This document shows, piece after piece, positions 2,640 to 40,741 of a DNA stretch of 46,766 nt (its first letter is position 1; each line of letters opens with the position of its first letter). The notes beneath the pieces are model-generated. The model did no database searches, was not told the origin of the DNA, and saw only the letters and a program-made list of their open reading frames with translations. Location: the IMG/VR virus record IMGVR_UViG_3300048833_000105, positions 1 to 46,766 of that record; one strand, given 5' to 3'. The DNA is from a virus. Both the position numbers and the translations under genes were made by a program.

Positions 2640-3137
2640 ATGCATGACGCCGGCCTCATCAGTCGTTTTTGGGACAAGATTGACGACATCGCCGGGCCTG
2701 GCGACTGTTGGGGTTGGGCGGCAGCTACAGGCAGTCACGGGTACGGCGTCATCGGTCGCACCGGCGGCAAGCACAAAGGGTTGATGAAGGCGCACCGTTT
2801 ATCGTGGGAAATACACAACAACTGCTGCATTCCGGCAGGAATGGTGGTGATGCACACATGCGACAACCCGCCATGTTGCAACCCCAAACACCTGCGTTTA
2901 GGGACGCAGATTGACAACATTAAGGACATGCGACGTAAAGGAAGAAATGTGGATTTGTCAGCACAGCCTGGCACGTCTAATCCCGCTGCGGTGCTCAGCG
3001 ATCTTGACGTGCTGGCCATTCGTGAGATGTGCCGAACACGCGCGGCAGGCCAGCGCGAAATTGGACGACAATTCAACATATCGCAATCGATCATCAGCGG
3101 CATTCATCTGCGAAAGCTATGGAAGCACATTCCGTGA
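2640..3137 (+). CDS. HNH homing-type endonuclease
   Basis: A 165-residue protein. The HNH core lies at about residues 55-95: AHRLSWEIHN, then MHTCDNPPCCNPKHLRLGT with NIKDMRRKGR after it, typical of the HNH_3 type with its conserved His, Asn and zinc-ligand cysteines. The C-terminal part (DVLAIREMCR to SIISGIHLRKLW) looks like a helix-turn-helix that would set target specificity. It begins 2 bases after the resolvase stop. Its base composition is visibly less GC-rich than its neighbours, a common sign of a mobile free-standing homing gene inserted into a phage operon. Its stop overlaps the helicase start (GTGA). Confidence 0.85.
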   Translation: MHDAGLISRFWDKIDDIAGPGDCWGWAAATGSHGYGVIGRTGGKHKGLMKAHRLSWEIHNNCCIPAGMVVMHTCDNPPCCNPKHLRLGTQIDNIKDMRRKGRNVDLSAQPGTSNPAAVLSDLDVLAIREMCRTRAAGQREIGRQFNISQSIISGIHLRKLWKHIP

Positions 3138-4501
3138 CGCTTGAACTTTTTCCCTACCAAATCCAAGGCGCACAGTTTCTCGCCGAACGAGCGCGTGCAG
3201 GGTTGTTCGACAGACCAAGATGTGGAAAAACTCCACAGGTTATTCGCGCCCTCGATCTTCGTGGATCGTCACGAGGCATCATTGTCGTGCCCGCAGTGGC
3301 GCGGGAGCAATGGCGCGGCGAGTTCGACAAGTTCGCGTTGCAGCGCAGGCGCATTGTCAAGGGCACATCAATTCACGACTTTGTAGCGTGGGCCAACGGT
3401 CGCTTTGATACGCTGATCACAAGTTACGAGATGATGGTTCACTGGACGCCGTACCTACACGATCGATGCGAAGCTTTGCAGTTTCTCGTCTTTGACGAAG
3501 CCCATTACCTTAAATCAGAAGAGGCCAGGCGCACCAAGACGCTGCTCGGCGAGCACGCGCGGACGAACGGCGGCGCTCTCATGTGGGCCGAGCAGGCGTG
3601 GTGGTTGACGGGGACGCCGGCGCCAAACGATCCGATGGACATTCTGACTTTCCTGCGCTTTCAGCACGTCATGCCGCTTGGAACCGAAGCGTTCCGCCGG
3701 CGCTATTTCACGAGCCGGGCCAAGACGTACGGATCAGCGCAGACAGCCAAGGCCGACATGCTGGCCGAGCTGCGCCTGCTGATCGCCAACAACAGCTTGT
3801 GCCGCACGCTCGATGACACAGGCGCGCAACGGCCGCCACTCCACACCACGACATACCTTGTCGATGGCGATGCGAAGCAGGTGCGCGATGTGCTGCTGCA
3901 ACACCCCGGCCTTGATGACACCATTCGCGATGCGCTGTTGAGTGAGCGCGGCCTGTCGAGCCTCGACGCACCGCACATCGCGACGCTGCGCCGCCTGATC
4001 GGCGAAGCCAAGGCGCCGGCCTATGCCGAGCTGCTTGTCGGCGAACTGCACGCAGGGCTCGACAAGATGGTGGTGTTCGCGCACCACAAGTCGGTGCTGG
4101 AGACGATCCGAGCGGCGTTGGTGAAGCACCACATTCGCTGCGGCATGATCGTCGGCGGCCAACCCGAGAAAGAGCGCGAGGCGGTCAAGCAGGCATTCGA
4201 CCATGATCCGCTGTTTCGCGTCGTGCTGTGCAACATCAGGGCCGCCGGTGTGGCGCTTACCCTGGCCGCATCCGCTGCGCTCGATATGGTTGAAGTGGAT
4301 TGGGCGCCCGCTGCGAATTTCCAAGCCATCATGCGCGTCTACGGCCCTATCCACGTGCAGCGCAGATCGGTGACTGTCCGCTTCATCACCCTCGCCAATA
4401 GTTTCGATACGCAGATCAACGAGATCGTCGCAGAAAAGACGAAAGCGATTGCTGCGCTCGACGCGGTAGGCGGCTCAACCCTGGAGGATATGTTGGCATG
4501 A
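3134..4501 (+). CDS. SNF2-family DNA helicase/ATPase
   Basis: A 455-residue superfamily 2 ATPase of the short phage SNF2 type. Motif Q/I region is LFPYQIQGAQFL, followed by DRPRCGKT (residues 26-33) where most members have a glycine-rich D-x-x-G-x-GKT. DEAH is at 121-124 and LTGTPAPN at 158-165. The C-terminal lobe carries LCNIRAAGVALTLAAS and a degenerate arginine-finger region (FQAIMRVYGPIHVQ). The GTG at 3134 is chosen for the GTGA overlap and the upstream GGAAG. An ATG at 3119 is the alternative. Such proteins accompany DUF2800 and DUF2815 genes in phage replication blocks and probably remodel forks. It ends in TLEDMLA, one of four similar C-terminal tails in this genome. Confidence 0.85.
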   Translation: MTLELFPYQIQGAQFLAERARAGLFDRPRCGKTPQVIRALDLRGSSRGIIVVPAVAREQWRGEFDKFALQRRRIVKGTSIHDFVAWANGRFDTLITSYEMMVHWTPYLHDRCEALQFLVFDEAHYLKSEEARRTKTLLGEHARTNGGALMWAEQAWWLTGTPAPNDPMDILTFLRFQHVMPLGTEAFRRRYFTSRAKTYGSAQTAKADMLAELRLLIANNSLCRTLDDTGAQRPPLHTTTYLVDGDAKQVRDVLLQHPGLDDTIRDALLSERGLSSLDAPHIATLRRLIGEAKAPAYAELLVGELHAGLDKMVVFAHHKSVLETIRAALVKHHIRCGMIVGGQPEKEREAVKQAFDHDPLFRVVLCNIRAAGVALTLAASAALDMVEVDWAPAANFQAIMRVYGPIHVQRRSVTVRFITLANSFDTQINEIVAEKTKAIAALDAVGGSTLEDMLA

Positions 4502-4740: not shown

Positions 4741-5726
4741 CAGCGTACTACAACGAGAACGAGCCCTATGCCGCAGCGTGGCTGCGCAACCTCATCGCCG
4801 CCGGCCACATCGCGCCAGGGCATGTCGATGAACGGAGCATTGTGGATGTTGCACCCGGCGATCTTGCTGGCTATTCGCAATGCCATTTATTCGCGGGGCT
4901 TGGTGGATGGTCCTACGCGCTGCGTCTCGCGGACTGGCCTGACGACAAGCCTGTGTGGACCGGAAGCTGCCCGTGCCAACCATTCAGTGGCGCAGGACAA
5001 CAGCGCGGCACCGCAGACGATCGGCATCTGTGGCCAGAGTTCCGCCGCTTGGTCGAGCAGCACCGCCCTGCAACTGTCTTTGGAGAGCAAGTTGCAAGCT
5101 CGCTTGGAAGGGCTTGGCTCTCCACTGTTCGCGCTGACTTGGAAGCGTTGGAATATGTCGTGGGGGCCGCAGATTTGTGCGCTGCGAGCGTCGGGGCGCC
5201 TCATATCCGGCAGCGACTTTGGTTCGTGGCCGACAGCCGGCGCCAAGGACGGCGACAAGAGTGTGCGATCCATGACAGGGGCGGAAGCGGAAGCGGCACG
5301 GAAGGGGTGGACGAACGATTTGAACACGGCGGCGCTGTCAGCTTGGCCGACAGTAGCAGCCCGCGATTGGAAGGGCGCGACGCACGATCGATGGGGCGAG
5401 AATGCGCGACCGTTGAACGAGGTGGCGAGATTGGCACCATGGCCGACGCCTGTAGCGTCTCTATCGCCGCCCGCACCTTGGAAAGAGGGTGTGCAGTGGT
5501 GGAAGCAGTCACGCGCAGCACGAAACTGCGAAGCTCTGGCGATGCATGGCGAGACACCGAATGGCTCCCCTGCCGAGACGGAAAAGCCAGGCCAACTCAA
5601 CCCGGCATTCAGCCTTTGGCTCATGGGGTATCCGCCAGAGTGGGAAAGCTGCGCGCCGCCGGCAATGCGATCGTCCCGCAAGTAGCGGCCGAGTTCATCG
5701 CCGCGTATCTGGAGTGCCGCCCGTGA
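4737..5726 (+). CDS. DNA (cytosine-5) methyltransferase
   Basis: A 329-residue Dcm-type enzyme that transfers a methyl group from S-adenosylmethionine to cytosine C5. Motif I is CHLFAGLGGWSYALRLADW, motif IV is GSCPCQPFSGAG with the catalytic Pro-Cys, motif VI is VFGEQV (a Glu-Gln variant of ENV), and motif VIII is APHIRQRLWFV. The C terminus has motif IX/X-like RVGKLRAAGNAIVPQVAAEF. The target-recognition stretch between motifs VIII and IX is low in complexity, with recurring ADS/ADA units. The GTG start overlaps the previous stop (GTGA). No cognate restriction enzyme is visible, so the likely job is protecting phage DNA from host restriction. A second open frame runs through most of the gene (see 4768-5685). 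Confidence 0.85.
   Translation: MTAYYNENEPYAAAWLRNLIAAGHIAPGHVDERSIVDVAPGDLAGYSQCHLFAGLGGWSYALRLADWPDDKPVWTGSCPCQPFSGAGQQRGTADDRHLWPEFRRLVEQHRPATVFGEQVASSLGRAWLSTVRADLEALEYVVGAADLCAASVGAPHIRQRLWFVADSRRQGRRQECAIHDRGGSGSGTEGVDERFEHGGAVSLADSSSPRLEGRDARSMGRECATVERGGEIGTMADACSVSIAARTLERGCAVVEAVTRSTKLRSSGDAWRDTEWLPCRDGKARPTQPGIQPLAHGVSARVGKLRAAGNAIVPQVAAEFIAAYLECRP
4768..5685 (+). other. long alternative open frame inside the methyltransferase gene
   Basis: The +1 frame relative to the methyltransferase stays open for 305 codons and ends 41 bases before the methyltransferase stop. Its product is not random in appearance. It has ordered segments such as GSPLFALTWKRW, repeated SWPT/AWPT/PWPT units, and a C terminus LNPAFSLWLMGYPPEWESC. 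I recall similar conceptual proteins annotated next to or over phage Dcm genes, but could not check. The repeated WPT units arise from the same TGGCCGAC codons that give VADS/LADS/MADA in the methyltransferase frame. There is no clear ribosome-binding site. It could be true overprinting, a remnant of an older fused domain, or a GC-rich artefact. Confidence 0.25.
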
Positions 5727-6016
5727 CCAAGATCGACATCGACGACGTGATCTCACAACTCGACAAGCTCGGCTGGTCTGTGTGGCATGTCGGCCGCCCC
5801 GGTGGTCGAGGGTGCGAATGGTCGGCGCTGCTCTACACCGACCACGACCATCCCGCTGTGCAACAGCCCGAGATGCGATCCATGGGCGGCCTTCGTGGCG
5901 GCTTTTCGCATGCGGGGTACGGAAACACCTGGCGCGAGGCGATCGTCGATGCTGCCAGTGACATTTTGCCCGAACCGAAAACGGAGGTGTTGACACTGGA
6001 GCAGATGCTACGGTAA
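5723..6016 (+). CDS. small hypothetical protein with MLR tail
   Basis: A 97-residue protein coupled to the methyltransferase by a GTGA overlap. It has an alpha/beta pattern: DDVISQLDKLGW, a glycine-rich loop (HVGRPGGRGCEWSALLYTD), a second glycine-rich segment (GGLRGGFSHAGYGNTWREA) and then a helix. I do not recognise the family. The last residues, LTLEQMLR, match the tails of the ssDNA-binding protein (SIADMLR), the small terminase (SLDDMLR) and the SNF2 helicase (TLEDMLA), suggesting a shared binding partner. It is cytoplasmic, with no membrane segment. Confidence 0.7.
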   Translation: MTKIDIDDVISQLDKLGWSVWHVGRPGGRGCEWSALLYTDHDHPAVQQPEMRSMGGLRGGFSHAGYGNTWREAIVDAASDILPEPKTEVLTLEQMLR

Positions 6017-6055: not shown

Positions 6056-6484
6056 ATGGCCAAGACCAGCAACCAGTACACGTTCACCACGGATGATCCG
6101 AAGCTCGCCGGCGACATCATGCAGCTCATGACCGGCGGCGCGCCGGCCGCGGCGCCCGTCTCGGCGCCCGCGCCCGTCTCGGCGCCCGCGCCCGTCGCCG
6201 CGCCCCCGGTGTCCGCGCCGGCGCCCGTGGCCGCCCCGCCGCCCGCCGCGGTCGCACCCCCGCCCGTCGCCGCCCCGCCGTCCGTGCCGGCCGCGCCGAA
6301 GGGCGACCCCGCGCCGGGTTGGACCGTCGAGCATCCGCGCTCGGCCCTGGCCGCGCTCGCGGGCGTCAAGGGGCCGGCGGCCGTGGCCGGCGTGCTGCAG
6401 AAGTTCGGCATCACCGCAATCAGCGACGCCGATCCCGCGACGTGGCATCTGATCCACGCCGCCGCGACCGAAGCCGCTGCCTGA
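6056..6484 (+). CDS. hypothetical protein with long Pro/Ala linker
   Basis: A 142-residue protein with a strong ribosome-binding site (AGGAGG) upstream of the ATG. A short N-terminal segment (residues 1-28, with DDPKLAGDIMQLMTGG) is joined to a C-terminal helical domain (about residues 85-142, SALAALAGVKGPAAVAGVLQ) by some 55 residues made mainly of Pro, Ala, Ser and Val. The linker DNA contains imperfect 18-bp tandem repeats. The same build, small domains tethered by Pro/Ala linkers, is seen at 1241 and 7955. This suggests a tethering or scaffold role in the replication complex. No family recognised. Confidence 0.65.
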   Translation: MAKTSNQYTFTTDDPKLAGDIMQLMTGGAPAAAPVSAPAPVSAPAPVAAPPVSAPAPVAAPPPAAVAPPPVAAPPSVPAAPKGDPAPGWTVEHPRSALAALAGVKGPAAVAGVLQKFGITAISDADPATWHLIHAAATEAAA

Positions 6485-7954: not shown

Positions 7955-8779
7955 ATGCCCATCATGAAGGACAGCCGGCTACCCGATGACTGGCTGACGC
8001 GCGCCGTCGCCGCCAATCCGTTCTCCAAGCAGGAGAACGGCATGTGGCGCACGTGCCCTGTGCGCCTGTCATTCGTCCACGCGGTCAAGCCGAACCCCAA
8101 CGCGAAGAATGACGACGGCACGCCGCGCGCCGAACCGCAGTACGAGATCACCATGCTCTGCCCGCCCGGCGCGCAGGAGCAGATCAACGCGCTCGTGTGG
8201 CCCGAGGTGTATCAGATGCTTCGCACGGAGTTTCCGGGCGACTTTGATGCAAGTGGCCAGCCGATGCGGCTCCACATTCCGTGGCGCGATCAGCACGAGA
8301 AGGCACACAAGTACAAGGGCTATACCAGCGGCTTCCCGTTCTTGCGCGCGACGACGAAGTTCAAGCCGCAGATCGTCGATCCCGCCGGCAACCCGATCGT
8401 GGACGAGAACCGCGTCTATGCGGGCGTGTGGGCGATCGTGTCGCTGAATTTCTACGTGTTCGGCAAGAGCCCGCCGCGCCCGAAGAAAGGCGTGTCGATG
8501 TCGTTCTCTGGCATCATGCTCGTCGCTGATGACGAGAAGCTGGCCGGCGGCGCGCCCGACGCGGCGACGCAGTTCAAGGGCGTCAACATCGACGCGCACT
8601 TTGATCCGAGCGCGGCCTTCGGGGCGCAGCCTGGCGCGCCGCCGATGCCCGGCTCGATCATGCCGCCGCCCACGCCTGTTGCGCCGGGCTACGCACCGCC
8701 TCCCGCGCCGGGCTACGCACCGCCTCCCGCGCCAGCCGCGGCACCGCCCATGCCGTCCATCGCGGACATGCTGCGGTAA
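7955..8779 (+). CDS. DUF2815-type single-stranded DNA-binding protein
   Basis: A 274-residue protein. Residues about 30-200 fit the DUF2815 fold: VRLSFVHAVKPN, then YEITMLCPPGA, LHIPWRDQHEKAHKYKGY, LRATTKFKPQIVDPAGNPI, YAGVWAIVSLNFYVF and KKGVSMSFSGIMLVADDEKL. The family is regarded as phage ssDNA-binding proteins working at the fork. The C-terminal ~60 residues are a Pro/Ala/Gly-rich disordered tail with two exact PGYAPPPA repeats, ending in SIADMLR. A disordered tail with a conserved tip is typical of ssDNA-binding proteins that recruit partners, although the tip is usually acidic. Its stop overlaps the next start (TAATG). Confidence 0.8.
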   Translation: MPIMKDSRLPDDWLTRAVAANPFSKQENGMWRTCPVRLSFVHAVKPNPNAKNDDGTPRAEPQYEITMLCPPGAQEQINALVWPEVYQMLRTEFPGDFDASGQPMRLHIPWRDQHEKAHKYKGYTSGFPFLRATTKFKPQIVDPAGNPIVDENRVYAGVWAIVSLNFYVFGKSPPRPKKGVSMSFSGIMLVADDEKLAGGAPDAATQFKGVNIDAHFDPSAAFGAQPGAPPMPGSIMPPPTPVAPGYAPPPAPGYAPPPAPAAAPPMPSIADMLR

Positions 8780-28390: not shown

Positions 28391-29188
28391 CTAGAACAGC
28401 AGGAAGGACGGCGTCCACCATCCTTGGTTCGACGCGCCAACGCCGTCATCGCCGAGGATCGCACCGCTGTAGCCGCGCACGGCGATCCAGTCCGGCGTGA
28501 AGTCCACCGACGTCGTGCCCTCATTGCCGTCGCGGCTGCGGGCCGTCTGCAGGGCGTTCATGGCGCCCTGCGCGCGCGCCCTCGCGATATCCTGCTTGCC
28601 CGAGATCGGCATGGCGAACCGGGTGGCCAGGGATTGCACCATGGCTTCCTGAAACAGCGGGTCCCACAAATCCTCGATCTCGATGCGCTGCGTATAGAGG
28701 CACAGCGCGCTCGCGCGGTTCGTCAGGACCACCTTCACCTGATTGCCGCTGTTGTCCGTATCGGCCGCGACGGCGAAGCGTGATGGCACGATGGCGCCAG
28801 GCGCGTAGCCGGCCGGCAGCGCGACAGAGAACATCGGCTGATCGAACCCAGGCTGTGCAACAAGCGACGTGATCATGCGCACCTGCACGCAGTCATTCGG
28901 GTACGCATAGGAGTAGAACCATGGAGGCGGCGGCATCGTCGCCGGATCATAGACGTTCGGCGTGCCGGTCGGGTTCTCTGGCGTGCCCGGCGCGGCCTTG
29001 AGCAGCGCGAGCTGCACCATCTTGCGCGCGAAGTTCCACGGGGCCGCCCGCAGCAGTTCATCGCGCGTCGGATCGTACAGCAGGCGCGCTTGCTCCGCTT
29101 CCGTGCTACGCTCGTTGAGGTTCACCAGCGACGAACGCGCGGCGATCGCTGAGAGCGCACGGTTCACGATGTCGGTGCGGGTTGTCAT
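28391..29188 (-). CDS. tail adaptor (tail tubular protein A-like)
   Basis: A 265-residue protein, start overlapping the spike gene stop (ATGA). It has the adaptor hallmarks: DIVNRALSAIAARSSLVNLN, EAEQARLLYDPTRDELLRAA followed by PWNFARK, then YAYPNDCVQVR. These match T7 gp11-type gatekeeper proteins that ring the portal and carry the nozzle. The second half contains EIEDLWDPLFQEAMVQSLAT and then the helix with the ATRF segment, also typical. Length is slightly greater than T7 gp11 (196), as in other BPP-1-like phages. Confidence 0.85.
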   Translation of the reverse strand: MTTRTDIVNRALSAIAARSSLVNLNERSTEAEQARLLYDPTRDELLRAAPWNFARKMVQLALLKAAPGTPENPTGTPNVYDPATMPPPPWFYSYAYPNDCVQVRMITSLVAQPGFDQPMFSVALPAGYAPGAIVPSRFAVAADTDNSGNQVKVVLTNRASALCLYTQRIEIEDLWDPLFQEAMVQSLATRFAMPISGKQDIARARAQGAMNALQTARSRDGNEGTTSVDFTPDWIAVRGYSGAILGDDGVGASNQGWWTPSFLLF

Positions 29189-30768
29189 GACGCCACCATT
29201 GCTGTCGTGAAGCGGTGCCGCGCCGATACCTCAGCCATGATCAGGCTGTTGCCGATCGAGGACGGAGCGACGTGCGTCAGCGTGATGGTCAGCGTTGCTG
29301 TCTGGACGCCTGCGCCGCCGACGACACCCCACGACGCTGCGGCCGACATGCCGGACGGGCCAGACGAGTTCTCGTCGCGCACCACGGCATAGTTCGAATT
29401 CGTCGCATTGGCGAGCCGCACTACGCCGGCCTCGATGTAGCCGCGATACGACGCGGCAACGGTTCCGCCGGTCTGCGAATTGACGGCCGTCAGCGTCACA
29501 ACGATGATCGACGATGCCAGCGTTTGCACCGGCAGGGTGCATACGATCACCACGTCTGTCGTGGTGCCAGCATTCAGGTTCTTGTACACCGGCATCAATT
29601 CGTTCGGGGCATTGCCGTCAACGAAGGCTGTCGGCGCCGGGAAGATGATGCCGTTGTAGTAGCCCTGGTGTGCTTTCGACCACCAGTTCTCGGCGTACAC
29701 ATGGCTGCCCGCCGTAGGGAAGTTGTTGAGCACCGGCATGGTCGCCGCGGTCGAGCCGCCCGTGATGTGTACGGAGCGCGACGATCCATTCCAGTTGATG
29801 ACGAGGCGCGCCGGCCCTTGGAACCGCGTACCATCGATCGTCATGGCGACAGGCGAAACGCCGCCACCGAGCGTCACCACCATGTCCTCGTCTTTGATGG
29901 TGTTGCCGATGAAGGCGCCTACTTGATTGGTGCCATCGACCGTAGCGATAGCTATGCCGCCATCGAACGTGCAGCCGGTGATACTCGTGCCAAAGCCAAA
30001 TTGCTGAAACACCGCGCCGGGCTGGAGCGTGTTGTCGTAAGTGGTGAAATTCGTCACCTGCACCCCGGCGCTGCTCTCGCACACGATGCCTTCCAGCGTG
30101 TTGCCGTGCGCATTGCCGCCGACGATTTGGATGTCTTGCACCTCGCTCTGCACGAGAAGGCCGCGGCCGGCGTTGTTGAGCCACAGGCAGTCGAAAAAGT
30201 GGTTATCAACCACGCTCGCGCAAAGCGTGTTGTTGGCGCTGCGCTCCGTCAAGTAGCACCCCGCCAGATTGCCGCCCGTCATCCAGCAGCGCGTGATGCG
30301 AGAGCGCGCCGTGACGAGCACGAGGGCGTAATCCTTGAGATCGTCGCCATCAACGACAACGCCCTCCAGCGTCAGGCCCCAATTGGCAAAGCCACTATTC
30401 GCCACATAGGCATTCGACGCGATCAGGTACGCAGGGTCGCCAAGGCCAGAAGCCTTGATTGTGGCCATGCCGAAGCACACGATCGCCACGCCGCGATTGT
30501 TGCGGTTCGGGATGGTCAAATTGTCAACGAGGTAGGTGCTGCCGGGCCGCAGCACGACGGCCGCGCCGTCCATCGACACGGTGATGGAGTTGATCGCCGA
30601 TTGGAAGGCGACGGTGTCGTTGGTGACGCCGTCGCCTTTCGCACCGAACGCTTCCGGCGTGATGTACGGGCCATTGATGACAGGGATCAGGATGCCGTCA
30701 CCTGCGTCGATGGCGCGCAGCTTGGCCCACATGCCGTTCGGTTGCTGGATCAGGATGTTGTCAGCCAT
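29185..30768 (-). CDS. tail spike with adaptor motif and pectate-lyase-type beta-helix
   Basis: A 527-residue protein with GAGG upstream of the ATG. Residues 1-30 (ADNILIQQPNGMWAKLRAID) are the adaptor motif shared with the next two upstream genes. From residue 38 (PEAFGAKGDGVTNDTVAFQS) a pectate-lyase-type right-handed beta-helix begins. The C-terminal ~130 residues are beta-rich and end in EVSARHRFTTAMV. It is probably a second receptor-binding spike or depolymerase besides the fibre at 14382. Being encoded next to head and decoration genes rather than beside the fibre suggests a separate attachment site on the virion. Confidence 0.75.
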   Translation of the reverse strand: MADNILIQQPNGMWAKLRAIDAGDGILIPVINGPYITPEAFGAKGDGVTNDTVAFQSAINSITVSMDGAAVVLRPGSTYLVDNLTIPNRNNRGVAIVCFGMATIKASGLGDPAYLIASNAYVANSGFANWGLTLEGVVVDGDDLKDYALVLVTARSRITRCWMTGGNLAGCYLTERSANNTLCASVVDNHFFDCLWLNNAGRGLLVQSEVQDIQIVGGNAHGNTLEGIVCESSAGVQVTNFTTYDNTLQPGAVFQQFGFGTSITGCTFDGGIAIATVDGTNQVGAFIGNTIKDEDMVVTLGGGVSPVAMTIDGTRFQGPARLVINWNGSSRSVHITGGSTAATMPVLNNFPTAGSHVYAENWWSKAHQGYYNGIIFPAPTAFVDGNAPNELMPVYKNLNAGTTTDVVIVCTLPVQTLASSIIVVTLTAVNSQTGGTVAASYRGYIEAGVVRLANATNSNYAVVRDENSSGPSGMSAAASWGVVGGAGVQTATLTITLTHVAPSSIGNSLIMAEVSARHRFTTAMVAS

Positions 30769-30777
30769 TGGGGTGCC

Positions 30778-31467
30778 TCACGGTGCGGCCACAAGGCCCA
30801 TGATCGGGACGCCCGGCGAAGACGCGAAAAACGACAACGCCGGCAGCGTTGGGAAGTCGTTCGCATAGGCGTCAGCCACCGATGCGCGATAGTAGGTTCC
30901 GGTGTTGCCGATCGAGCGGACGAACGCGGCCAGGCTCAGGCCCCCGTACATCAGCACTGCGCCTGCGCCCATGATGCCGCCGGGGTTCATCGTGTGCGGT
31001 TGCGCAGCGCCGTCGAATTTGGACATGGGCCAGTACCAGCCACGCTGCAGCAAGCGAGGCGCAGCAAATGCCGCGGTCAGGACGGTGTTGGCGGCGCTGT
31101 TCATGTCGAGGATCGTGGGGCTTTCCTCGATCAGCGCACCATTCACGCCGCCGGGGGCGCCTGCGCAGAGGGCCATCTTGCCGGATACGCCAGGGACTGC
31201 GGTGCCTACAGACAGAACCATCCCTGAGAACAGCGCCGTCTCTGGCACCCACAGCGGGTGCCCATAGAGTGTGTTGGCGGCGATGGCTGTCGTGGCGGCA
31301 GCGGCGGCACGGATGTCGGGGCCGATCGTGGTGCCGGCGCGCACGCCTGGCATGCCAGGGCCGCTATCGGTGTTCACCTGCGGCACAAGCACGCCGCCGC
31401 CGACATCTATGGCTCGGATTTCGGCCCATTCGCCGTTTGCCTGCTGGACGAGAAAATTGTCAGGCAT
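30778..31467 (-). CDS. virion protein with shared adaptor motif
   Basis: A 229-residue protein with GGGAG upstream. The first 30 residues (PDNFLVQQANGEWAEIRAID) are nearly the same as those of the spike at 29185. Thereafter it is beta-rich with Ala/Gly, containing LWVPETALFSGMVLSVGTAV and GMPGVRAGTTIGPDIRAAAA. The mature domain is not one I recognise. It looks like a small receptor-binding or decoration head on the same anchor as the spike. It lies 9 bases upstream of the spike gene and 21 bases after the next member of the set. Confidence 0.65.
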   Translation of the reverse strand: MPDNFLVQQANGEWAEIRAIDVGGGVLVPQVNTDSGPGMPGVRAGTTIGPDIRAAAAATTAIAANTLYGHPLWVPETALFSGMVLSVGTAVPGVSGKMALCAGAPGGVNGALIEESPTILDMNSAANTVLTAAFAAPRLLQRGWYWPMSKFDGAAQPHTMNPGGIMGAGAVLMYGGLSLAAFVRSIGNTGTYYRASVADAYANDFPTLPALSFFASSPGVPIMGLVAAP

Positions 31468-31488
31468 AGGCGCGCTACTCCCTGCTGA

Positions 31489-31680
31489 TCAGGCCACGCA
31501 GAGAGTGAGCACCCCTGCGCTTTCCACCGCGCCGAGCTTGGCCCACTCGCCGTTCGGCTGCTGGAAATTGAAGTACGTCGTCGGCGGCAGGTTCGTCACC
31601 ACGAGGGTTTCAATCCCGTCGTCGGTTGTCGTGGCCAACTGCTTCCACGTGCCATCAGCACTGAGAACAAGGATGGCCAC
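31489..31680 (-). CDS. minimal adaptor-motif protein
   Basis: A 63-residue protein starting at GTG 31680 (GGAAGTGA upstream). It is mainly two beta-hairpins: ILVLSADGTWKQLATTTDDG, then YFNFQQPNGEWAKLGAVESA with GVLTLCV. The second half carries the same QQPNGEWAKL motif found at the N termini of the two following genes, and the first half is a diverged copy (SADGTWKQL). It may be the free-standing ancestor of the adaptor module or the baseplate-like partner that holds the spikes. No known family. Confidence 0.6.
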   Translation of the reverse strand: MAILVLSADGTWKQLATTTDDGIETLVVTNLPPTTYFNFQQPNGEWAKLGAVESAGVLTLCVA

Positions 31681-37095: not shown

Positions 37096-37365
37096 TCAGG
37101 TTCCCAACAGTTGCTTTTTGCGCTGATCGGTCGAATTGGTGTCGGCGATCAGGCCGGCGGGCGAGGTGAGTACCGTCCCGCCCTGGCCACGGCCGCGGGA
37201 CGCCGAAGCGGTCGTGCGCATGCCGCCGGATTGCGACCACGGGCTGTCCTGCATGGCGGCCGGCGGCAAGGCGCGCGCTGGCGTCACGGCGGCCCCGGTG
37301 TCGTCCTGCTCGATCGGCGCCGGCATCACGACAGGCGCGGGCCGGGGGGCTTTCCCAAATCCCAT
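37096..37365 (-). CDS. small head-region protein, paralogue B (KKQLLGT tail)
   Basis: An 89-residue, probably disordered protein with a strong AGGAGG. It shares with the gene at 37375 an MG-x-G start, the string ALPPAAMQ followed by PWS, a TVLT segment, and the C terminus KKQLLGT. Similar small proteins ending in K-x-L-L-G stand beside portal genes in many podoviruses. Their role is not known to me. The low complexity suggests an extended peptide that lies along the portal or capsid, with the conserved tail as binding site. Confidence 0.7.
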   Translation of the reverse strand: MGFGKAPRPAPVVMPAPIEQDDTGAAVTPARALPPAAMQDSPWSQSGGMRTTASASRGRGQGGTVLTSPAGLIADTNSTDQRKKQLLGT

Positions 37366-37374
37366 GGTTTCCTC

Positions 37375-37680
37375 CTACGCGCCGAGCAGTTGCTTGCGCC
37401 GCGGCGCCTGGTCCGGCGTGAGCACGCCGCCACCCGTCAGCACTGTGCTGGCGGTCCCACCGCCTCCGGTCCTGGCGCCTCCGCTCCACGGCGCGGACTG
37501 CATGGCGGCGGGTGGCAAGGCGCGCGTCGCGGACAGAGCCGGATCGGCCGCTGGCGTTCCACCGCCCGAGGGCTTGTTGAACGGCTCGTTGAAGTCGCGA
37601 ACCTCGCCGCCCTTCGTCCAGCTCTCGACATGTGCCCGCCTGTTGGCTTCCGGCGTGCCGGGCGTGGTGCCCCATCCCAT
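37375..37680 (-). CDS. small head-region protein, paralogue A (RKQLLGA tail)
   Basis: A 101-residue protein with CGGAG before the ATG. It begins MGWG and contains VESWTKGGEVRDFNEPFNKP, then shares ALPPAAMQ, PWS, TVLT and the tail RRKQLLGA with the gene at 37096. The two look like a tandem duplication that has diverged in the first half. It is the first gene after the terminator at 37760-37790 and so may start the head-gene transcript. Confidence 0.7.
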   Translation of the reverse strand: MGWGTTPGTPEANRRAHVESWTKGGEVRDFNEPFNKPSGGGTPAADPALSATRALPPAAMQSAPWSGGARTGGGGTASTVLTGGGVLTPDQAPRRKQLLGA

Positions 37681-39943: not shown

Positions 39944-40741
39944 CTATCTGAGCATGTCGTCAAGGGAGGGGTGGTCCGGCTCGGCCTCGCCTTCGATCAG
40001 GCGCGGCTGGCCTTCGTGCGCTTCGTCATCCTCGATCATCTCGTACTCGGCGTCAGGGACGGCCGCCAAGGCCGCGGCTGCATCACCTTCGCTCGGTCGT
40101 GCGCGGCCTGTGCGGCGGTACGCTTCGTTGAGACGGTCGGCGAGCGACGAGGTGAAATTGATGTCGAGCTTGTCGTTGTTCATCCCTAGGTGGCGCATCA
40201 GGGAGTTGAGCGGCCCCATCTTGCTGACGAGTTTCACTTCCTGAATTTCGACAGGCACCATTTTCTGCTTGCCGGTGCTCTCGTCGATGGCCACCTCGAC
40301 GATGCGGCGCGTCTTGATGCCCTCGATCATGGCGCCGTCGTCGGCGTTGTATTCGGTCGGCGCCTTGAGGCTGCCATCCTCGCGGAACATGACGCGCGGA
40401 TCGCCGAATGCCAGGCGACCAAGTTCCTGCAGGACGCGATCCTGCGATATGCCGACGCGCGCTGACCGCTCTGCCATGGCGCGGGCGACGGCGTTGGCTA
40501 CCTTGCCTCCCGTTTTCATCCAGGCCGCGGCAATGGCGCTTGCTGTCGCAGGGGACGCCCCGGCCCGAATGGCCGCGGCGGTCTGGTTGAGATCGACGAG
40601 GTATTCCAGAACGAACGCCGCCTGGATCGGTGTCAGCCCTTCGGCGTTCTTTCGGCGCACGCTGCCGCCAACCCGCGGCTTTGGTAGCTGCTCGGCGGTC
40701 AGGTCGATGAAGGTGTTGCGATCGTGGGCTTCGTCAGACAT
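39944..40741 (-). CDS. terminase small subunit
   Basis: A 265-residue DNA-recognition subunit. LTPIQAAFVLEYLVDLNQTA then AAIRAGASPATASAIAAAWM is the HTH of the Terminase_2 type, followed by SARVGISQDRVLQELGRLAF (oligomerisation region) and a C-terminal acidic part (EYEMIEDDEAHEGQPRLIEG). It binds the packaging site and recruits the large subunit. AGGAGAG precedes the ATG. The final residues SLDDMLR repeat the tail on the ssDNA-binding protein, which is unexpected for a packaging protein. Confidence 0.85.
   Translation of the reverse strand: MSDEAHDRNTFIDLTAEQLPKPRVGGSVRRKNAEGLTPIQAAFVLEYLVDLNQTAAAIRAGASPATASAIAAAWMKTGGKVANAVARAMAERSARVGISQDRVLQELGRLAFGDPRVMFREDGSLKAPTEYNADDGAMIEGIKTRRIVEVAIDESTGKQKMVPVEIQEVKLVSKMGPLNSLMRHLGMNNDKLDINFTSSLADRLNEAYRRTGRARPSEGDAAAALAAVPDAEYEMIEDDEAHEGQPRLIEGEAEPDHPSLDDMLR

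Follow-up and report, generated by a model that had tools for sequence, protein, structure and literature searches.

The window analysed here is the whole of a single IMG/VR virus record (46,766 bases), in which about 54 genes were called. The rightward genes make up a DNA-metabolism module that encodes RuvC-like and HNH proteins, an SNF2-type helicase, a cytosine methylase, an orphan protein of 97 residues (gene at 5723), a protein that we call P6 (gene at 6056), a DUF2800/PD-(D/E)XK exonuclease, a gp2.5/Enc34-type single-stranded DNA-binding protein (SSB), a family-A DNA polymerase (PolA) and a prim-pol/helicase. The virion and terminase genes point leftward. The initial annotation of this DNA had claimed that four unrelated proteins end in a common motif, [ST][LI]xxML[RA] at the free carboxyl end, and the four tails were located exactly where it had placed them. 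The genes and tails are as follows.

3134-4501, plus strand: SNF2-type helicase gene, tail bearer (Pfam SNF2-rel_dom 6.9e-16, Helicase_C)
4475-4501, plus strand: SNF2-type helicase tail, STLEDMLA-stop (direct sequence; kept by orthologues)
5723-6016, plus strand: orphan gene, tail bearer (predicted alpha-beta-beta-beta-alpha domain)
5990-6016, plus strand: orphan tail, LTLEQMLR-stop (direct sequence; kept by orthologues)
7955-8779, plus strand: gp2.5/Enc34-type ssDNA-binding protein gene, tail bearer (Pfam Enc34_ssDNA-bd PF10991 1.4e-24; PHROG 112)
8612-8755, plus strand: Pro/Ala-rich flexible linker of SSB, from OB-fold to tail (from sequence)
8756-8779, plus strand: SSB tail, SIADMLR-stop (direct sequence; kept by orthologues)
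39944-40741, minus strand: terminase small subunit (TerS) gene, tail bearer (Pfam Terminase_2 2.8e-25; PHROG 51)
39967-39944, minus strand: TerS tail, SLDDMLR-stop (direct sequence; kept by orthologues)

Only these four of the called genes have such an ending. That their products are unrelated, as the initial annotation also held, is borne out by Pfam, which places three of them in three different folds (SNF2-rel_dom, Enc34_ssDNA-bd and Terminase_2). The GTG at 3134 that it had taken as the start of the SNF2 gene is plausible. The orphan has no Pfam match, and a fold search returned a weak resemblance to dsRBD and YcaO N-terminal domains that falls under the noise threshold (Z 6-6.7). In its AF model the protein ends in a short helix (residues 92-96) behind a low-confidence hinge. 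The codons of the four tails are unlike, which rules out that the tails are copied DNA; and since different codons specify them, selection acts on the protein.

A pattern of this kind invites the objection that it was found by looking for it. The narrow pattern matches 0 of 2,576 background genes taken from related loci, its per-protein chance is 9e-6 and about 5e-4 matches would be expected in the window, but the pattern was derived from the four tails themselves and its own p value is thus post hoc. A broader pattern, [STDGEN][LIM]xx[ML][LI]x, matches 5 of the 2,576 genes, most of them SSB, exonuclease or other DNA-metabolism genes, and with this frequency the probability of four or more matches among 54 genes is 4e-6. 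When the last 30 residues of the proteins were shuffled, four tails were reached in 0 of 20,000 trials. The initial annotation had counted occurrence at chance frequency as an argument against itself; by the background genes and the shuffles alike, the tail lies far above that frequency. Since the four tails themselves supplied the narrow pattern, relatives of the window provide a better, and an independent, test. Scans with polymerase alignments yielded 34 viral and 80 bacterial-genome loci, and scans with SSB, TerS or primase alone returned near relatives only.

In the closest relative (G001) most proteins are 88-95% identical to those of the window, and SSB and TerS end in SIADMLR and SLDDMLR, unchanged; the SSB linker has acquired insertions and deletions while the tail has not altered. 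Among relatives generally this linker differs in length and sequence and the tail is constant. A second relative (G002) is only about 60% identical to the window. All four of its orthologues are tailed, with the version altered to an LLG, LIG or MLG end (SNF2 PGLEVMLG, orphan IDLAKLIG, SSB LDMSKLLG, TerS DDELQRLLG), and two further proteins that are tail-less in the window, a DNA methylase (..PDLAELLG) and a protein of 169 residues (..PDMKKLLG), bring the number with the common altered tail to six. In G003 and G004 three proteins are tailed (SSB ASLEDMLG, orphan ..LLDLEAMLA, SNF2 ADMAAMLS). The orthologues in all of G001 to G004 therefore retain tails, whose loss the initial annotation had named as a second argument against itself. 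The more distant G005 (38% identical in PolA) has no tail common to its proteins. The tail is thus a real feature of these four proteins and not a product of chance. The DUF2800 exonuclease of this group of close relatives (clade A) has no tail, so that the list of tailed proteins is not identical between clades.

Many proteobacterial phages and prophages (clade B) have other tails (DLV/DLA, DLI, [VMI]F[SNAV] or DLLS), common to SSB, the DUF2800 exonuclease, TerS, a primase-helicase, a clamp-like protein and methylases. In the Achromobacter type SSB ends in GDDLA, the exonuclease in GADLV, TerS in PGADLV and the VapE-type primase-helicase in FADLV; a Burkholderiales locus (L068) has the four ends DDIA, DDLA, EDLA and DDLA. 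Bordetella phage BPP-1 has EDLV on the exonuclease, ADLV on SSB, AGLV on TerS and ADLI on Dam, and BcepC6B has SDLA on exonuclease and primase. In Arenibaculum (L062) the tail is (A/E)DLLS, on SSB, the RuvC-like protein and a protein of 84 residues, and in Mycoplana (L067) the exonuclease ends in SLEDML and the methylase in GLEDML. The Enterobacterales tails are SLI or DLI, and in Xenorhabdus an SSB with [VI]F[SN] is paired with an exonuclease with [MI]F[VSA]. Beyond the four core families, proteins that end in DL[VAI] are mostly clamp-like proteins, methylases or polymerase fragments. The tails are in this sense nearly restricted to DNA-metabolism proteins. In a set of 39 non-redundant proteobacterial loci, SSB and exonuclease agree in their final three residues far more than under permutation (z 5.4, p<5e-5). 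Some proteobacterial relatives, namely L015, L067 in its SSB and the Acinetobacter loci, have no tail in common.

If the tailed proteins of a genome dock on a common site, their tails would be expected to change in concert, as they do here. The initial annotation had proposed such a site, on the polymerase, a clamp or a hub protein. Its general idea agrees with the concerted change; of its three candidates, the polymerase is not singled out by the covariation described below, a search of the window for a clamp gene found none, and a hub protein, encoded at 6056-6484, fits better. Within Xenorhabdus the prophages have two tail types, with Phe or Leu at -2, each used in concert across proteins, which argues for a reader encoded by the phage. 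The two families that are present in nearly all loci and tail-less are PolA, on which the tail is absent save on a split N-fragment, and P6. P6 family members were found in 100 of 115 related loci, with their gene immediately preceding that of the exonuclease, and P6 has no tail in the loci listed. In the window it is represented by two features.

6056-6484, plus strand: P6, proposed hub or reader, 142 residues (family occurrence, covariation with tail type, AF model m321df6fba344)
6314-6484, plus strand: P6 C-terminal domain, proposed tail-binding part (AF model and co-divergence with tails)

P6 is predicted to consist of a short N-terminal element (MAKTSNQYTFTT..), a long Pro/Ala linker and a C-terminal domain of three helices (residues 92-105, 107-116 and 127-141), modelled with a pLDDT of about 93-97. 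The window protein belongs to no Pfam family, with scattered weak matches only; its profile found linker-type matches only among PDB sequences; and the C-terminal domain gave no significant Foldseek match, while the best VIA Z was 4.6, to unrelated proteins.

Covariation of P6 with tail type was examined in 13 closely related Enterobacterales prophages, which comprise a Phe-tail group, with Phe at -2 in both SSB and exonuclease, and 9 Leu-tail relatives. The two groups differ at 8 of 61 positions of the P6 domain and at 12 of 1,644 positions in the other proteins pooled (Fisher 1.5e-7), a difference in P6 that had been spotted by eye ahead of its test; the individual counts are 5/685 in PolA, 2/432 in SNF2, 0/160 in the SSB core and 5/367 in the exonuclease core. 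The Phe/Leu division is the best of 715 four-way splits in P6 only. The changes in the Phe-tail group include Leu to Ala, Ile to Leu and Leu/Ile to Val, so that the phages with the larger tail residue have smaller side chains in the P6 helices. The covarying positions include A/L and L/I in helix 1, V versus L/I in helix 2, and the start of helix 3; L075 is a phage of the Phe type and L076 one of the Leu type. Judged by PolA, SSB and exonuclease, Leu-tail and Phe-tail phages of Xenorhabdus fall together, and in SNF2 all six Xenorhabdus phages are alike; judged by the P6 domain, the Leu-tail phages of Xenorhabdus fall with the remaining Leu-tail phages.

A comparable result is obtained when divergences are compared. 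Among close pairs the partial correlation of tail divergence with divergence of the P6 C-terminal domain, given PolA divergence, is 0.69 (p<2e-4), a signal that comes mainly from the one group of 13 Enterobacterales prophages. The equivalent values are 0.17 for SNF2, -0.17 for the SSB core, 0.07 for the exonuclease core, -0.08 for VRR-NUC and 0.31 for the P6 N-terminus, below that of the C-terminal domain. The correlation with the P6 domain is 0.58 when the Phe group is left out, and it stands for the SSB tail alone, for the exonuclease tail alone and for 2-5 tail residues. Outside the 13 Enterobacterales loci it is weaker (r=0.41, p=0.048). With wider divergence (PolA distance <0.40) SNF2 and the exonuclease correlate with the tails too, and whole-dataset scans of columns, of distances (mirror-tree) and of nearest neighbours do not single out P6. 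Because of phylogeny these whole-dataset scans are not discriminating; the close-pair tests alone discriminate.

Based on these comparisons, we suggest that the tail is a lineage-specific C-terminal docking tag, and that a single hub encoded by the phage, most likely P6, reads every tail of that phage and co-evolves with them; we would assign this reading a probability of roughly 0.58. The tag would consist of an N-cap (S, T or D) followed by hydrophobic residues at i, i+3 and i+4, and would stop one residue later or, in the DLV type, at the last hydrophobic residue. It would thus form one to two amphipathic helical turns at a fixed distance from the free carboxyl end, with hydrophobic positions at -6, -3 and -2 (-2 and -1 in the DLV versions). 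The short helix past a flexible hinge in the orphan model agrees with such a helical tail. The tags would be presented behind flexible linkers on proteins that act on phage DNA, that is on SSB, the SNF2 helicase, TerS and the orphan and, in relatives, on the exonuclease, the primase-helicase, the clamp-like protein and DNA methylases, an arrangement that would suit a tool-belt hub. The three-helix domain of P6 may hold the tail, and its N-terminal element and long linker may allow it to collect a number of clients, for instance on phage DNA coated with SSB. Through P6, exonuclease, SSB, helicase, methylase and TerS could meet on the same replicating DNA. We infer the binding, its stoichiometry and its purpose, which would be to recruit recombination, modification and packaging enzymes to phage DNA as it replicates. 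The chances are about even that the fuller version also holds, in which this address tag and its reader, in gathering the enzymes of replication, recombination, DNA modification and packaging, co-evolve into a private code for each phage line, also among phages of a single host genus. A link between replication and packaging, as drawn by the initial annotation, would have one basis, the presence of the same tail on TerS in the window, in G002 and in proteobacterial prophages.

A different reading, which we consider unlikely, is that the tails dock on the phage family-A polymerase or its complex and that P6 covaries for some other reason. The C-terminal tails of T7 gp2.5 and gp4 contact the gp5 DNA polymerase (PMC5686142, PMC8472574), the window SSB belongs to the same gp2.5/Enc34 family and has a C-terminal tail, and PolA is itself tail-less except for the split fragment. 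In the whole dataset the strongest single columns also lie in PolA, where columns 977-989 have the highest local association with tail type. These columns, however, merely split the tail-bearing clade from its Firmicutes and Acinetobacter relatives, as phylogeny would, and in the Xenorhabdus contrast few PolA positions separate Phe-tail from Leu-tail phages. Moreover, the T7 tails are acidic, whereas here a short amphipathic motif is found on four to six proteins, those of packaging and modification included. The window tails are not strongly acidic and have no Phe end; that of SSB follows a Pro/Ala linker and contains one Asp.

Less probable again, and disfavoured, is a receptor in the host, with the tails docking on a protein such as the beta sliding clamp or marking their bearers, as a C-terminal degron, for a protease of the host. 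Their core x-x-D-[LM]-[LV] is like the beta-clamp binding consensus, Qx[SD][LM]F (Qxx[LM]F), but the anchoring Gln is present in 0 of the 4 window tails, and S, T, L, I or D stands there in the window and G002. The window tails likewise have no C-terminal signal of the ClpXP consensus, LAA-like or MuA-like (the endings in the window and G002 include MLR, MLA and LLG). SNF2, methylase, polymerase and packaging proteins do bind clamps in other systems (T4: PMC2988020, PMC9026906). On the other hand, the Xenorhabdus prophages use two tails in concert, and a conserved receptor in the host would create no need for this.

It is improbable, and somewhat more so, that there is no common partner and that the tails are convergent acidic or hydrophobic ends that tune the DNA binding or solubility of DNA-binding proteins. 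The acidic C-termini of gp2.5-type SSBs do modulate DNA binding on their own (Enc34 ORF6, PMC5686142), and there are the proteobacterial relatives without a common tail; but convergence leaves unexplained why unrelated proteins encoded by the same genome change their exact tail in concert, why its distance from the C terminus is fixed and why the covariation is specific to P6. Finally, a chance resemblance selected by an earlier reader, who defined the pattern only once the sequences had been seen, has almost no probability left, since shuffles never yield four tails and relatives retain or co-change them.

The proposed docking by P6 has precedents with which it may be compared. In bacteria the C-terminal peptide of SSB (SSB-Ct, DDDIPF) serves many genome-maintenance partners. 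There one SSB tail has many partners, whereas here there are many tail bearers and one proposed hub; and the C terminus of the window SSB, PPMPSIADMLR, has no acidic stretch with a Pro-Phe end. In T4 the polymerase, gp55 and gp33 have in common C-terminal motifs that are freely interchangeable and bind the gp45 clamp (PMC2988020), and packaging is linked to the clamp machinery, with coupling proposed (PMC9026906). The likeness is that three or more unrelated phage proteins (four in the window, six in G002) end in nearly the same hydrophobic motif after a flexible linker, and that a single phage hub reads it, as is proposed here. By analogy, the present system may work like the shared clamp-binding motifs of T4 with a different, unnamed candidate hub. 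It differs in that the T4 hub is a sliding clamp and its clients are the polymerase and sigma factors, while the candidate reader here is a small three-helix linker protein, and the clients would be SSB, SNF2, TerS, exonuclease, methylase and others. A clamp-like HMM matched none of the called genes in the window or in G001-G003, with a match in G005 only. A further comparison is with lambda Red-beta and Orf. The small C-terminal domain of Red-beta, encoded together with exonuclease and annealing functions, consists of three helices and has two binding partners, the exonuclease and E. coli SSB (PMC8303780). The C-terminal domain of P6 is likewise predicted to be three-helical, the P6 gene lies upstream of those for exonuclease and SSB, and the tie of P6 to these two proteins is one of covariation. 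P6 has no annealing domain, and no sequence match or significant fold match was found. The DUF2800-gp2.5-polA module is already known (PMC8093625), but we did not find the shared tail, or P6 as its reader, described in the open-access papers searched.

If the proposal is correct, a phage protein of unknown function would be the organiser of phage DNA metabolism, and it would become clear how methylase, exonuclease, SSB and small terminase of a small phage come together on one DNA. A handful of residues at the C terminus would be enough to predict clients, which would offer a first way into unannotated proteins like the orphan. The Leu-type and Phe-type tails would be a natural set of orthogonal peptide-receptor pairs, and the coupling of replication to packaging would become testable beyond T4, in named relatives such as BPP-1.

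Several other features of these genomes were noted. The family-A polymerase is encoded in two genes in G002 (C1:22275-25995), with a DNA methylase gene between the parts. It is also split in L034-L043 (e.g. L041:9532-12385), where the N-fragment ends exactly at a tail-like ..DAEDLV; in L041 a methylase gene again lies between the two parts. In two Paenibacillus prophages (L099:11956 and L106:11956) the protein directly after PolA ends in DFDI(N/D)LDDLLK, like the window tails; these Firmicutes phages are otherwise without tails in common. A DnaN-like sliding-clamp gene lies beside the phage polymerase in L018 (7732-8403), L029 (12640-13332), L077, L083 and L120. Its family is labelled 'RusA-like resolvase' in PHROG 3007 and yet matches Pfam DNA_pol3_beta_2 (1e-5) and PHROG 947 'processivity factor' (4e-11); among clade B phages that have this protein, it ends in DLV or DLA in 5 of 13.

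In the structural gene block of BPP-1, bbp15 (L141:18009-18215) encodes a protein of 68 residues with a GGDLV end like those of the BPP-1 replication proteins. A second, different C-terminal motif occurs in the structural module of the window, where adjoining paralogues on the minus strand (37096-37365 and 37375-37680) end in RKKQLLGT and RRKQLLGA; the C terminus of BPP-1 bbp22, GKSTLLGQ, resembles these ends. Also on the minus strand, three adjacent genes at 29185-31680 have in common a repeated motif like ..QQPNGMWAKLRAIDAGDG, which suggests a duplicated N-terminal adaptor module.
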